From: a virus
DNA length: 64,000 nt
Virus record (IMG/VR): IMGVR_UViG_3300036715_000227
Location: 1 to 64,000 of that record
Direction: 5' to 3' (one strand)
Shown here: piece by piece, positions 31,569 through 40,870 of the stretch
Layout of the letters: every line of letters starts with the position of its first letter
Position numbering within the stretch: the stretch's first letter is position 1
Position numbers and translations under genes: made by a program
The notes under the pieces: generated by a model
What the model saw: only the letters and a program-made list of their open reading frames with translations
Told to the model about the DNA's origin: nothing
Databases searched by the model: none

Positions 31569-32651
31569 TTACTCTTCCACCGGGTCAATCGAATCTACTG
31601 TTTCCGGGGTTCGGCCTGACATCAGATGAGGATTAGCCGTTATGTCAGCCATAACACGAGTCAAACATTCGTCGTCATTACGTTCCCATCCTTTTCGAAA
31701 TTTTTTAATAATTTCACCATCAGTTGTTGTATATACTAGGCTGTTACCTTCCTTCTTTAGAAGTGCCTTACCTTCAAACATATCCGTCAATCCAGACGTA
31801 GGACTCATTCCTTGCTCGTAAGGAATCTTAACTTGCACGGATTCAAACGGCTTTGCATAACGAGTCTTCATGATCTTACAAGCTGCACGAATACCAGCAA
31901 CTTCTTTAGTCTTGTTTCCATCTTCATCTTCCTTTAGCTTAAGCTTGCGCATAGCAACGACGATAGATGAGGCATAGATGAAGCCTTGTCCACCAGAGAT
32001 CTTGTCGTCTGGATCAAACATGTCTTGCGATGCGTATGTGTGGTTAGTTGCAACCAGGCCAATGCCCAACGAGCCAAACATGTTAACACAGTTGCGCACT
32101 AATGCAGTCAATGCCTTAGGCTTGCGACCCATGTCACCCTTCATGTCACCTGCATTGAACTGGTTAACGTCTGTAGGAGTCAACAACATACCCAGCGAGT
32201 CAAGTACAATCAGTACCTTAGGACGATCTGCTTCTGGTACATCTTTGTATTGTGCAACGAACTCGCTGATCATCTTTGCGACGTCATCGATCATTGCCAT
32301 GTTGAGTTTCAGAAGCTTGTCTTCCGATGTGTCAACGTTAAGAGCATGTAACCACTTTTCATCTAGTGCGTTTTCCGTATCGATTAGAATAGGAAATATG
32401 CCGGCCTTTTGTGCATTGGCAACAAGATTGCCAGAACAGATAAAGGACTTACCCGCACCAGATTCTCCAGCAAACACCGTTACCTTGCCCAACGGAATAC
32501 CGCGGTCAAAGGCGCCGGAGATTAGATAGTTGAGAGCGTAGTTATTAGTGCTTACCCAGTCAGTCGGGTCATTGAATCCTGTGCTAAGTCCTTCGATAGA
32601 CTTAGTGATAGATTTGCGAAATTTGCTAACATCAAACGGGCGATTGGCCAT
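31569..32651 (-). CDS. uvsX: UvsX RecA-like recombinase
   Basis: 360 residues. Walker A GESGAGKS in KVTVFAGESGAGKSFI, Walker B KVLIVLDSLGML, L1/L2-type region GDMGRKPKALTALV and VATNHTYASQDMF with GGQGF. Length and order fit phage T4 UvsX (RecA family), the strand-exchange protein of phage recombination-dependent replication. The ATG (MANRPFDVSKFRKS) follows AAGGAAAACAA. The coding ends of mobile GIY-YIG genes lie on both sides; the upstream one overlaps its first 20 nt. Confidence 0.95.
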   Translation of the reverse strand: MANRPFDVSKFRKSITKSIEGLSTGFNDPTDWVSTNNYALNYLISGAFDRGIPLGKVTVFAGESGAGKSFICSGNLVANAQKAGIFPILIDTENALDEKWLHALNVDTSEDKLLKLNMAMIDDVAKMISEFVAQYKDVPEADRPKVLIVLDSLGMLLTPTDVNQFNAGDMKGDMGRKPKALTALVRNCVNMFGSLGIGLVATNHTYASQDMFDPDDKISGGQGFIYASSIVVAMRKLKLKEDEDGNKTKEVAGIRAACKIMKTRYAKPFESVQVKIPYEQGMSPTSGLTDMFEGKALLKKEGNSLVYTTTDGEIIKKFRKGWERNDDECLTRVMADITANPHLMSGRTPETVDSIDPVEE

Positions 32652-33267
32652 TTTGTTTTCCTTTTAAATATGATTGTCTTCTAGCTTCGGACCAGGGCTT
32701 ACCTTTTAATGATTCGCCTAATTTAGCAGCATGTTCGGGAGTACGCTTATACTCTTTCATTTGTTGCTTAGTTGCATCCGAATGCTTATAATTCAACTGT
32801 TGTTGCGATTGACTCATTTTTTGCTTAGTTGCGTCTGAATGTTTCAATCCCAAATGACCGTTAGAATTAAATTTTCCTTTTTTAGTCGCTTGCATTTTTT
32901 GAATACGAGCTGCTTTAGCTTCAGCAGATTCACCGTAAGATGTTAAAACTCTAGAATTAGTTTCTTTATCTACATACGCTTTATTCAAACGTAACGGATC
33001 TGTTTTGCTTTCTTTAATCAATCTTTGTTCTTCCCAGAAACAATCTTCGTACTTTTCATTTCTGAATAATATTTGAACTTCAAACGAATCTGCACCATAC
33101 ATCTCTATTAACTCTTTAACTTTCCTCGATGAAGAAAAATAATGAATCCATAAATCGTCCTCTGGAGAACGTTTTTGTCGTATATTGCTTGCTCTTGATC
33201 CTATATAAAATTGATTAGTTATCTTATTTTTTAAAAAGTACACATAGGCTTGAAATTTATTTTGCAT
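32632..33267 (-). CDS. GIY-YIG homing endonuclease
   Basis: 211 residues. N-terminal GIY-YIG motif in AYVYFLKNKITNQFYIGSRA, conserved Glu in EEQRLIKESKTDP, then NUMOD3-type repeats (GLKHSDATKQKMSQSQQQL, NYKHSDATKQQMKEYKRT) and a short basic tail. Its 3' end overlaps the first 20 nt of uvsX, so it is inserted right at the uvsX start. A late promoter box lies at 33271-33279. Confidence 0.87.
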   Translation of the reverse strand: MQNKFQAYVYFLKNKITNQFYIGSRASNIRQKRSPEDDLWIHYFSSSRKVKELIEMYGADSFEVQILFRNEKYEDCFWEEQRLIKESKTDPLRLNKAYVDKETNSRVLTSYGESAEAKAARIQKMQATKKGKFNSNGHLGLKHSDATKQKMSQSQQQLNYKHSDATKQQMKEYKRTPEHAAKLGESLKGKPWSEARRQSYLKGKQNGQSPV

Positions 33268-36847: not shown

Positions 36848-37933
36848 TCAATAATGATTTGACGAAAATACTGCAATCCACGGCAAAGGGTCAATGTAAT
36901 CAGATGCATCGTTCATTCGTTCATCAAGGTCAGCATCAAAGCTTTGCAATGCTTGCATCATACGTATGGCTAATATTAGAGACATAACCAAATCGTCCGT
37001 CTCACCTTCTTTTGCTTCAAATGAATTGCCCTGGGCCACGAATGTTTTAAACTCAGAGATCAGCAACTTAGAGGCAATGTGCAACTTCTTCTGTTCAATC
37101 ATACTCTTTAGCTTTGCACACGCTGCCAACTTGCTCTTGTGCGTTGTATTAAAGCCCTTTCGTGCACGTTTCTGCCCAGGCTTACTTGGTTCAGTTAAAA
37201 ATATGCCTCTAAAGTTTTCTTCACCGACTTGAGCAATAGCCATAAGCGCAGCTTCGCCCAGTGTATTATTTTCTACGCTGTAATAAATCTGGTTCTCTGT
37301 ATTTGTCGTTTCGTACAAGTATTCAATGATGTCTTTCATAATCTGTACTTGTCGTTGAATAGGTGTCTTATTGTGATTCCATTCTCCTATTTGCTTTAAG
37401 CTTGGTAGCTCGATAATCTGAATAGCAGATGGGTCGCCGCCCGTACCTAACGATGGATCTAATGACACTACATAAGTAGAGTGAGCATCTGGCTTCCCGT
37501 ACCAACGCACAGTGCCTTGTCTCGATACCGGATCAATACCAGCCATCTCAATGAGAGTCATCGAATTGATTAGCGTTTCATCATAAATCAAGAACTCGCA
37601 ATTTTTAATGAGAATCCCATTTGCGTAGAATCTATGATTCTTTTCTACTTCCAATAAGTCGTACACTGGTTCTATATCGGCGACAGTCACAGATACAATC
37701 GTTTCTATTCCGTCATTGACGAATATTTTAGATCGTGGCTTTAATGATTCTGCTGCAACAATCTCAAATGTAGGCTTGAAGAATTTATGGTCAGGCGTGC
37801 ATATAATATGTCTTGACTGTGTTTTAAGTAGCAATGTTTGCTTACTTCCCCGGCGCAGTAGTCCAGCAAAAGTTGACCACCCAGTATCTGTCAATACTTG
37901 CAATCCTATATTATTTTTTAATAAATCGTCCAC
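36848..37933 (-). CDS. gp17: terminase large subunit, C-terminal half with split intein C-part
   Basis: Start is taken at GTG 37933, 7 nt after AAGGA; TTG 37939 is possible. The first ~110 residues are the C-part of an intein: block B CTPDHKFF, block F VYDLLEVEKNHRFYANG, block G ILIKN followed by C+1 at 37600-37598. The extein continues EFLIYDETLINSMTLIEMAG and then the nuclease domain with YVVSLDPSLGTGGDPSAI (first catalytic Asp) as in T4 gp17. The reading frame overlaps the upstream gene by ~23 nt in another frame. A protein trans-splice with the upstream product would rebuild a full terminase. Confidence 0.88.
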   Translation of the reverse strand: MDDLLKNNIGLQVLTDTGWSTFAGLLRRGSKQTLLLKTQSRHIICTPDHKFFKPTFEIVAAESLKPRSKIFVNDGIETIVSVTVADIEPVYDLLEVEKNHRFYANGILIKNCEFLIYDETLINSMTLIEMAGIDPVSRQGTVRWYGKPDAHSTYVVSLDPSLGTGGDPSAIQIIELPSLKQIGEWNHNKTPIQRQVQIMKDIIEYLYETTNTENQIYYSVENNTLGEAALMAIAQVGEENFRGIFLTEPSKPGQKRARKGFNTTHKSKLAACAKLKSMIEQKKLHIASKLLISEFKTFVAQGNSFEAKEGETDDLVMSLILAIRMMQALQSFDADLDERMNDASDYIDPLPWIAVFSSNHY

Positions 37934-39473
37934 GAACAAATCCTTCTTCTTGTGTATTTTCTTTAAACTGCTTATTCACTACGCCGTTATTGTACCAAAC
38001 TAATCCGAGCTTACCAACCTGGTCTTTTTTCAATCTACCTTTATTAAATCCAATCGGGCACTCACTAGCGTATGTTTCAATTTGACTATCATTAAACCAA
38101 CTCAACAAAATTTCTAATTCTCCTATTGTTACCTCGCGTATTTCTCCACTGGGCCACTTTAGTGTCACTATCGAATTTGCGCCCACACAACCGTGTTCGC
38201 GGCGGAAGCGTTCTTCACCGATACGCCCAATTTCCTCTGCCTTCCACACTTCGTCGCGATCAGGATGTTCGTCCCAGCTTGAGCGATATGCGCGGAATCC
38301 ATTAGTGCCCAATGGGGTAACATTTCCAAACTCATCAAACGTCTTATTAGCTTGTTTCCATATTGTCGCAAACTGGTCTTCGTCTGAGTTAGGAGTGGAA
38401 GTAATAATAGCTTTACCACCAGTAGACAATGTAGGCGATATGGAAGTCCAAAATTCTTTAGCAATGCTTGGTCTAACGAACGCAAACTCGTCACAGTTAT
38501 GAGTTACTATGTTTCCGTTGACATAAAACTTGTGTGATATATGATCTACTTCGATAAGGTCATACACTGCACACGCACCTGATTCCCTTATAGTTTCTAT
38601 CTCTACAGGTCCATCACTGGTATCAATAAAATCACCCACCTTCAGATCTTCTACAGATATTTTTTCGTTACGCACGAAGAAAAAGTGCCTATGAGTAGCT
38701 TTAACTGATTGTCCGTTAACCAACTTTAATTCATATGTTTGTTTATTTTCTGCTTTAGTAACACCACGGAATCCGCGCCAGCCGCTCGGAGTGTCAATCA
38801 AATAGTTATTGTTTTCAACATAAGCGTCTACAATTTGATCAGGGTTACGAAGATTCCAGTATAGTTCTTCTAAGATTACTGTCGATTCCTCGCCTGTTTT
38901 TTTGTTCTGCAGTCTTACTGTAGATTCACCGTGTAGGCAATATAGGAGCGAGATAGACATACCCCGTCCTGTTGTTTCCGTGGTCGTTTGGGATACAATG
39001 CGAGAGCCATTTTCAAAGTCTATCGAGCCTTTGTTGTACGATGTAGCGCCTGCTCTAATGTGGTCCGGACATAGCTCGTATGCATAGCGAACACGCTGCA
39101 TAATTTCTTGGGCACCTGTGTACTTGTGAGCCGCAATCAAAATCGTACTATCTGGCACAAACATTGCGTACCATAATAAATACCCGGCCGCACTGGTAGA
39201 TTTGCCAGTCTGGCGTGGCATTAGACTGATTGAGAAACGGTAACTGTTGTACGTATCGATTAGCTTCTTCTGATAGTCATATGGATGGTACAGCATCTTA
39301 CCCTTTGTCGGGTGTTGGATATAAAAGAAGTTATCCATAAAGTATTGTGGCCCTGTTACAGGATCGGAACACAAGGCGAACTCTTGAATCTGCTGAGGAG
39401 TCCATAGTACGGATTTGTACGGTGTTTTAACAATAGCTTGTGGGTCTATTGGTTTTTTGGGTATATTGCTCAT
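37911..39473 (-). CDS. gp17: terminase large subunit, N-terminal half with one cis intein and a split intein N-part
   Basis: 520 residues. Extein 1 (1-178) has Walker A SLMPRQTGKS. A 148-residue mini-intein (179-326; DNA 38496-38939) starts CLHGESTV and ends YVNGNIVTHN before C327, exactly in front of the Walker B DEFAFV. Extein 2 (327-428) ends RFRREHG. From C429 (DNA 38189) a second intein begins (CVGANSIVTLKWPSG, block A); it has no block B and ends after ~92 residues in LVWYNNGVVNKQFKENTQ and EEGFVRGRFIKK, a homing-endonuclease-type DNA-binding motif. A late box lies 5 nt before the ATG and no ribosome site is seen. Confidence 0.9.
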   Translation of the reverse strand: MSNIPKKPIDPQAIVKTPYKSVLWTPQQIQEFALCSDPVTGPQYFMDNFFYIQHPTKGKMLYHPYDYQKKLIDTYNSYRFSISLMPRQTGKSTSAAGYLLWYAMFVPDSTILIAAHKYTGAQEIMQRVRYAYELCPDHIRAGATSYNKGSIDFENGSRIVSQTTTETTGRGMSISLLYCLHGESTVRLQNKKTGEESTVILEELYWNLRNPDQIVDAYVENNNYLIDTPSGWRGFRGVTKAENKQTYELKLVNGQSVKATHRHFFFVRNEKISVEDLKVGDFIDTSDGPVEIETIRESGACAVYDLIEVDHISHKFYVNGNIVTHNCDEFAFVRPSIAKEFWTSISPTLSTGGKAIITSTPNSDEDQFATIWKQANKTFDEFGNVTPLGTNGFRAYRSSWDEHPDRDEVWKAEEIGRIGEERFRREHGCVGANSIVTLKWPSGEIREVTIGELEILLSWFNDSQIETYASECPIGFNKGRLKKDQVGKLGLVWYNNGVVNKQFKENTQEEGFVRGRFIKK

Positions 39474-39560: not shown

Positions 39561-40100
39561 ATGGAACAAACTTTAATTCTGAACCGGGACTTTAACCCAA
39601 TCTCAATCTTACCTTTGAGCGTAATCGACTGGCAGCACGCCATCAAGTTATTCTTCTTGGATCGTGTTGAAATTTTGGAAACATATCCAGGGCGAGTCAT
39701 TCGCAGTGAAAAGCTTGAAATTGAAATTCCGTCCGTTGTAATGACTAAGGAATACTTCAATTTCAAGAAGAGTGTAAAGTTCTCCAAGCACAACCTGTTC
39801 TTGCGTGACCTGTACACTTGCCAATACTGCGGTGAAATGTTCCGTGAAGCTGACTTGACGAATGACCACGTTATTCCTCGGGTTGCTGGCGGCAAGACAA
39901 CTTGGGAAAACTGCACAACGGCTTGCAAGGTTTGTAACTCCAAGAAGGGACACAAGCTGCAAAAGCCAATGCGTATGCCATTCAAGCCAGACTACTACAG
40001 CCTGGTCAAGCAATGGAAGCAACGTGCACAACCGTTCCAAGTTTCACACGAAAGCTGGAACCGTTACTTGGGCTTAACTGCTAAGGTAGCGAACGGTTAA
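39561..40100 (+). CDS. HNH endonuclease
   Basis: 179 residues on the plus strand. Zinc-containing HNH core: YTCQYCGEMF, LTNDHVIPRVAGGKTTWENC, TTACKVCNSKKG. This is the bacterial McrA/HNH family type common near phage terminase genes, where it assists packaging in some phages, rather than the free-standing mobile type seen elsewhere in the window. N-terminal ~65 residues (MEQTLILNRDFNPISILPLS) are typical of that family. Divergent from the terminase and convergent (4-nt overlap) with the next minus gene. Confidence 0.9.
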   Translation: MEQTLILNRDFNPISILPLSVIDWQHAIKLFFLDRVEILETYPGRVIRSEKLEIEIPSVVMTKEYFNFKKSVKFSKHNLFLRDLYTCQYCGEMFREADLTNDHVIPRVAGGKTTWENCTTACKVCNSKKGHKLQKPMRMPFKPDYYSLVKQWKQRAQPFQVSHESWNRYLGLTAKVANG

Positions 40101-40870
40101 CGGAACGTATTGAGAGATGGGTTGTACTGTTTAATCAGTTCCATCTCTCTTGCGTGAGCAGGTCTCTTACCACGCACAACTTCAAGTAGCCCGTAAGTGA
40201 AAGCTTCCGGGCCATACTCACGAATGGACTTGCATAGTCCCCAATCCTTTTCCTCTACCCTTGCTCGCTGTGCATGTTTTTGCATACGCACCCACAGAGC
40301 TTTTTTCAAGTTAGGACGACCAGCGGTGATGCCTATGTATTGCTCACCTGTGATTATGTTTGTTATGACGTATATTCCATGATTGCAATCATTTCTTTTC
40401 TTACGCTTCTTGATTGCCGCGACCAGGTCAGGATCAACTGCTTCATTTGTTGAGCCACCTGCGTCAGTGGGATCTGTTGGTTTGGACATTAGTGTATTGC
40501 GAATCTCGTCCATTCCCAGCTTTTCATTCTTCTCAAAATCATCTGCTGTTAGGTTGTCCTTTTGGGAGAACCATAAACGGAACCATTCGTCAGTTCCGGG
40601 AACTAAGTTCTTTTCTTTTTCAATTTTGCGTTTGTCGAGGTTGCCGCCTGTAGTGCCCATTGGTGACTTAATGCCCCACGGATTGTCTCCTGCGGGTGCC
40701 ATTGGGTTTTGCTGCGATGAATTTTGCAGACCCATTTGCGAGTTAACATCTTCGCCTAACTGTGGTAAGCCGGCAAGTCGGCGCAAGTCTGCTAAGTCGC
40801 GTGGGTTCATAAACGCATCTGGATCTAGCGTCTCGCCAGGAGATACAAAATCAGCAGAGGTTAAACGCAT
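40097..40870 (-). CDS. phage protein fused to a GIY-YIG nuclease domain
   Basis: 257 residues. The first ~160 residues (PRDLADLRRLAGLPQLGEDV; NPWGIKSPMGTTGGN; TDEWFRLWFSQKDNLTADDF) look like a phage structural or scaffold protein. The last ~95 are a GIY-YIG domain: HGIYVITNIITGEQYIGITA, with Arg in KALWVRMQKHAQRA and Glu in HAREMELIKQYNPSL. There is no NUMOD or DNA-binding tail. Either a mobile nuclease has been captured as a C-terminal fusion, or the nuclease now has a virion role. ATG overlaps the stop of the upstream gene. Confidence 0.75.
   Translation of the reverse strand: MRLTSADFVSPGETLDPDAFMNPRDLADLRRLAGLPQLGEDVNSQMGLQNSSQQNPMAPAGDNPWGIKSPMGTTGGNLDKRKIEKEKNLVPGTDEWFRLWFSQKDNLTADDFEKNEKLGMDEIRNTLMSKPTDPTDAGGSTNEAVDPDLVAAIKKRKKRNDCNHGIYVITNIITGEQYIGITAGRPNLKKALWVRMQKHAQRARVEEKDWGLCKSIREYGPEAFTYGLLEVVRGKRPAHAREMELIKQYNPSLNTFR

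Follow-up and report, generated by a model that had tools for sequence, protein, structure and literature searches.

How does a phage obtain an intact terminase large subunit when its gene is broken into two, in different frames, with intein sequences on both sides of the break? The question is raised by a 64,000-nucleotide (nt) stretch of DNA from a bacterial virus, here called the window, which belongs to the IMG/VR record IMGVR_UViG_3300036715_000227 (66 kilobases (kb) in full). Gene 1 encodes the ATPase part of the terminase and gene 2 the nuclease part; a contiguous intein (intein b) lies within gene 1, and a second one (intein c) is divided between its N-terminal part (Int-N) at the end of gene 1 and its C-terminal part (Int-C) at the start of gene 2. 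Judged from sequence, the two terminase halves are very probably joined into one chain by protein trans-splicing. The features on which this proposal rests are as follows.

37911..39473, minus strand: gene 1, terminase large subunit N part (ATPase) with cis intein b, Int-N of split intein c and an endonuclease tail (Pfam and PHROG matches).
39198..39221, minus strand: Walker A motif, MPRQTGKS (translation; Pfam Terminase_6N).
38496..38939, minus strand: intein b, a contiguous mini-intein of 148 amino acids (aa), Y/C...HN/C, directly before Walker B CDEFAF (empty site in relatives L010-L012; profile match).
38190..38495, minus strand: middle extein, CDEFAF...RREHG (comparison with relatives).
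38100..38189, minus strand: Int-N of split intein c, 30 aa, with Cys1, CVGANS...ELEILLS (alignment with the 29-32 aa Int-N of relatives).
37914..38099, minus strand: what is left of a homing endonuclease gene, its final 62 codons, in frame with Int-N (74% identity to the C-terminal end of the HNH endonuclease in contig L006).
37941..37948, minus strand: Shine-Dalgarno-like AAGAAGGA for gene 2, within the endonuclease remnant (position conserved in relatives).
36848..37933, minus strand: gene 2, with a GTG start, Int-C and terminase C part (nuclease) (Pfam, PHROG, conserved start).
37601..37933, minus strand: Int-C of split intein c, 111 aa, with TPDH of block B, block F with Asp and His, and a KN/C end (alignment; NCBIfam profile).
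36851..37600, minus strand: C-extein, CEFLIYDET..., with the RNase-H-like nuclease domain (Pfam, PHROG).

An earlier note, made from the sequence alone, had proposed that the terminase is split over two genes. This is borne out by matches of both genes to PHROG terminase families and by the division of the Pfam domains between them, with an ATPase domain (Terminase_6N, 42.4 bits against a cut-off of 22) and a nuclease domain (Terminase_6C, 23.8 against 22.6 bits) of the T4-type terminase. The elements that the note had read in the 520-aa gene 1 product, namely Walker A, the 148-aa intein in front of Walker B, the extein running to RFRREHG and the start of a second intein, are all found in their places. 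Gene 2, in the +1 frame relative to gene 1 and overlapping it by 23 nt, opens with the intein motifs CTPDHKFF, VYDLLEVEKNHRFYANG and ILIKN/CEFL, again as proposed, and the NCBIfam profile intein_Cterm exceeds its cut-off there (24.2 versus 15.6 bits). Intein c is a natural split intein in that its halves reside in two genes with independent starts. Intein b is contiguous, a cis intein as the note had supposed; intein_Nterm exceeds its cut-off on it (25.8 versus 24.5 bits), and it has a THN/C end with the penultimate His and contains no endonuclease domain.

The boundaries of both inteins can be read from relatives that lack them. In the nearest terminases, of L010-L012, which have neither intein, SLLY-CDEFAF and RREHG-CEFLIYDE (RREHGCEFLIYDE) are uninterrupted, and identity to the window is 94% in the middle extein and 86% in the C-extein. 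Because these intein-less relatives read continuously, inteins b and c are insertions with exact predicted joints. The search for the HG/C...N/CEFL site in other phage terminases, recommended in the earlier note, yielded about 26 distinct contigs with the split and dozens of further relatives in which site c (HG/CEF) is empty. Chance intein-like motifs are ruled out by the empty sites together with the profile matches.

All the residues of a class 1 intein are present in intein c (Cys1, TPDH, block F VYDL, Asn111 and Cys+1), except that the penultimate residue of block G is Lys instead of His. Cys1, the block B Thr and His, the block F Asp, Asn111 and Cys+1 are kept across the aligned sets. 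A penultimate His is a common yet not obligatory feature of class 1 inteins, and it was not used to exclude membership. The residue is Lys in most relatives, Ser in L020, L025, L051, L072 and L087, and His in distant cultured phages; Lys in KN/C, being conserved across relatives, is characteristic of the clade and no sign of damage in the window. Int-C is under purifying selection, with a ratio of nonsynonymous to synonymous substitution (dN/dS) of about 0.1 in comparison with L006 and with L008. This evidence bears on the view that no splicing occurs and that the ATPase and the nuclease act as two separate chains. The cut does fall between the two terminase domains, and a ribonucleotide reductase split by a homing endonuclease is a precedent for function in pieces (cited in PMC10448857); without splicing, however, there would be no reason to retain Cys1, TxxH and the terminal Asn and to keep Int-C under selection, which makes separate action very unlikely.

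Structure prediction of both intein halves together, suggested in the earlier note, gives a confident HINT fold. For the model, CGTG was read as one step to give both halves as a single chain, which is a proxy and not a natural product. In the AlphaFold model of this chain, 135 residues, in the intein part, have a predicted local distance difference test (pLDDT) score above 90, and the endonuclease tail, at about 50, is predicted to be a loose insertion at the split site. The best PDB matches of the model by Foldseek are inteins, with VidaL first (1.2e-10), followed by gp41-1, NrdJ-1 and Cat (TMt 0.79). A PDB search with Int-N alone found nothing.

A two-gene terminase with a cis intein and a split intein at HG/C...N/C, as the earlier note had it, is supported because empty-site relatives give exact joints, catalytic residues are conserved, relatives are split in the same way and the HINT-fold model is confident. 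In the proposed mechanism, the terminase large subunit would be made as two polypeptides, the first of which would lose intein b by self-excision in cis. The 30-aa Int-N that this chain carries at its end and the 111-aa Int-C that opens the second would associate to complete one HINT fold, which would follow the class 1 pathway in trans with Cys1, Asn111 and Cys+1 and join ...RREHG to CEFLIYDE..., giving an intact ATPase-nuclease. The 62-residue tail trails Int-N and would leave with the intein as a passenger. Several points weigh against this proposal. Lys replaces the penultimate His, and Asn cyclisation would have to proceed without His; Int-N is the least conserved part, with 63% identity between the window and L006; the 62-aa tail on Int-N could slow association of the halves; and the record covers 66 kb of a probably large phage genome, in the remainder of which an intact terminase could lie. 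No second terminase was found within the 66-kb record.

Another way to one chain would be slippage, in translation or transcription, on the A6 run (ATTAAAAAATAA) at the end of gene 1, where loss of one base would join the frames and let the intein splice in cis. Relatives that have a free endonuclease gene as the upstream frame share this A6 run and +1 overlap, and slippage in them would not restore the terminase. No stable RNA structure was found at the junction (z -0.21), and Int-C is preceded by a conserved ribosome site and a GTG or ATG start. In the window the likely start of gene 2 is GTG 37933, 7 nt downstream of AAGAAGGA and at a position conserved in relatives, and TTG 37939 is the earliest possible start codon; the overlap of GTG and ribosome site is kept in relatives whose upstream frame is a separate endonuclease gene. 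Frameshift fusion was rejected as the main explanation on the conserved start and the absent RNA structure, and is regarded as highly improbable. A continuous frame joining the two genes, which the earlier note had held out as a possibility on resequencing, did not appear in a second contig, L005, which has the same junction in a match of 6515 base pairs (bp) with one mismatch and no gaps. Because L005 carries the same junction, it is not an assembly slip of one record. The agreement of the two contigs, the open and conserved frames of both exteins and the layout common to relatives also stand against a decayed, non-functional terminase or a sequencing error, which is extremely improbable even though the endonuclease deletion described below is a partial decay of the locus.

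Trans-splicing of two separately started polypeptides leaves the question of how the split arose. Split inteins are thought to originate when an endonuclease breaks a contiguous intein, and intermediates are rarely seen side by side. The earlier note overlooked that the 62 in-frame residues after Int-N are a homing endonuclease tail, and this vestige accounts for the origin of the split. Gene 1 residues 459-520 share 74% identity with the final 62 residues of the L006 endonuclease. In most of the approximately 26 contigs with both ends visible, an Int-N of 29-32 aa and its stop are followed by a complete endonuclease gene and then by the Int-C gene; the exceptions are L008/L009, L051 and the window with L005. 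Three types of endonuclease occupy the same gap: HNH with NUMOD3 (L006, L013, L018-L023, L104-L106, L115 and L116), GIY-YIG with NUMOD3 (L014, L015, L024, L026 and L100) and DUF7487 (L025 and L072). Some of these genes were typed by gap length and sequence inspection, only part of the members having been searched with profiles, and the GIY-YIG assignment is based on PHROG 314, the visible motif and Pfam matches below threshold. The HNH and GIY-YIG types share a C-terminal tail, WYNNG...GFxRGRxxKK, the end of which is overlapped by the start of Int-C.

The split is inherited from an ancestor in which an independently started homing endonuclease gene separated the halves, and a deletion in the window has taken this gene, sparing the last 62 codons that hold the ribosome site and start of gene 2. 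L008/L009 retain only about the last dozen endonuclease codons, in a 64-nt gap. In the Int-C tree the window copy (L005) groups with the endonuclease-bearing L006/L007 at 98/93, and L008/L009 group with the endonuclease-bearing L021 at 95/86, which indicates two independent losses from an endonuclease-bearing split ancestor. Both losses spare the start of gene 2 and its ribosome site. Between the window and L006, synonymous divergence (dS) is lower in the intein and tail (1.0-1.4) than in the exteins, where it is saturated, as pairwise estimates over short stretches; this suggests that the intein c element moved between these phages after their terminases diverged. One gene family shows the empty site, the split with an endonuclease of three types, an endonuclease fused to one half, a tail only (the window) and an endonuclease nearly gone (L008/L009), so that the route by which a mobile element becomes a fixed split intein can be tested directly.

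The loci that retain the HNH or GIY-YIG gene have a further element. Directly after Int-N, all 17 distinct tailed loci (L006 1400-1450, L013 4300-4340, L014 4205-4250 and 14 others) contain a 27-nt copy of the C-extein start (EFLIYDET), which lies in another frame than Int-N and provides the stop codon of Int-N. The copy always starts at codon +2, encodes KFIIFDEMI, EFVIFDET and similar peptides, and is identical at 14-21 of 27 nt, windows elsewhere averaging about 11; the loci are related, and per-locus statistics are not independent. At 15 of the 17 loci the copy is followed by NATAAATA (0.04 boxes expected per window) and then by the endonuclease ATG, at 5 nt in 14 loci and 4 nt in one. Site b of L014, with a different nuclease, has the same design, GACGAGTTTGCGTTTG (DEFAFV) running into TATAAATA. 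The window and L008/L009, all without endonuclease, lack the box, and no extein copy was found at the same place in Vibrio phage Va1, Serratia phage 92A1, Providencia phage PSTRCR_127 or the DUF7487-type loci. In phage T4, homing-site look-alikes lie over the promoters of I-TevI, II and III, and I-TevI has been proven to repress itself there (PMC2988022). From its resemblance to T4, NATAAATA is a candidate late promoter, and by analogy with I-TevI the gap endonucleases might regulate themselves by target mimicry, an I-TevI operator design inside a protein-splicing element; this is a real possibility, with the balance tilted somewhat against it. The copy might alternatively be a relic of endonuclease entry. 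If self-regulation is true, the window would hold a released, regulator-free split intein.

Homologues of intein b occupy the same site in L014 and L051 and are split there, at an equivalent point after about 38 residues, with an endonuclease between the halves in L014 and none in L051; the window copy is either the unsplit ancestor or a re-fused split intein. In L014 (1913-6101) the Walker B-site and HG/C-site inteins are both split, with a different endonuclease-like gene in each gap. The terminase of L051 (2892-5671) has three inteins, at the Walker A, Walker B and HG/C sites, of which at least two are split without endonuclease, and three or four pieces would then encode this motor, as read from the sequence. 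Terminases divided in this way (L014, L051) would need two or three trans-splicing events per motor. In L072 (2069-3973) a long cis intein, LAGLIDADG-like by eye, lies in the Walker A site of a terminase with a split HG/C intein. The terminase gene of Campylobacter phage PC5 (L153, 2495-3823) and related Fletcherviruses starts with Int-C at the Walker B site; since the gene just upstream encodes a neck protein, the N half must have its coding sequence in another part of the genome. The annotated terminase of Salicola phage SCTP-2 (L154, 1892-5085) also begins with Int-C at this site and has a further cis intein downstream; the preceding gene resembles, by eye, the endonuclease-like gene of L014.

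The window has other endonuclease-related genes. An HNH_5 gene adjoins the terminase on the opposite strand (39561-40100, plus), a GIY-YIG domain is found at the C-terminal end of a neighbouring protein of unassigned function (40097-40870), with the same fusion in the intein-less L010, and a SegE-like GIY-YIG gene with NUMOD3 is at 32632-33267 (minus). The window also has 48 tRNA genes at 2645-25522, several anticodons being present in at least two copies, and the N part of its terminase is about 60% identical to that of the PA5oct group.

Among known systems, the fractured genes that Dassa et al. are said to have described in 2009 have a split intein with a free endonuclease between the halves. 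These genes and PolB of Pseudomonas phage MIJ3 share the layout of most relatives (e.g. L006, L013 and L014), whereas in the window the endonuclease is reduced to a tail. In the cultured phages 92A1 and PSTRCR_127 the homologous terminase site holds a split intein whose halves are separated by a GIY-YIG gene, but they differ in their HN/C end, complete endonuclease and T4-like terminase, and are only about 30% identical. The Va1 terminase is also split by an intein at the homologous site, although its endonuclease is fused in frame to Int-C while the window remnant is fused to Int-N. Similar in form are the atypical natural split inteins AceL-TerL (25+104 aa) and GOS-TerL (37+115) and their consensus Cat (30+104; PDB 6dsl) (PMC11766414), which have a terminase large subunit as host, a short Int-N (25-37 aa), a long Int-C (104-115 aa), a C-extein beginning with Cys+1 and Glu+2, and a split before block B by alignment to CatC, which is also the structural match at TMt 0.79. 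A split at this position, called unusual in the earlier note, is so for inteins in general but not within terminase inteins, since these three share the site. The window differs in the 62-aa endonuclease tail on Int-N (92 aa in total) and the penultimate Lys in place of His, and its sequence identity to Cat is low (about 22%). About 25 split inteins with a short Int-N are added to this kind, and they may serve in N-terminal protein labelling. The kind and the site of the split intein are already known from AceL-TerL, GOS-TerL and Cat; the conserved KN/C end, the putative three- or four-piece terminases and the out-of-frame C-extein copy by a late-promoter-like box are new points, and what is new in the window itself is an Int-N that absorbed the end of an endonuclease.
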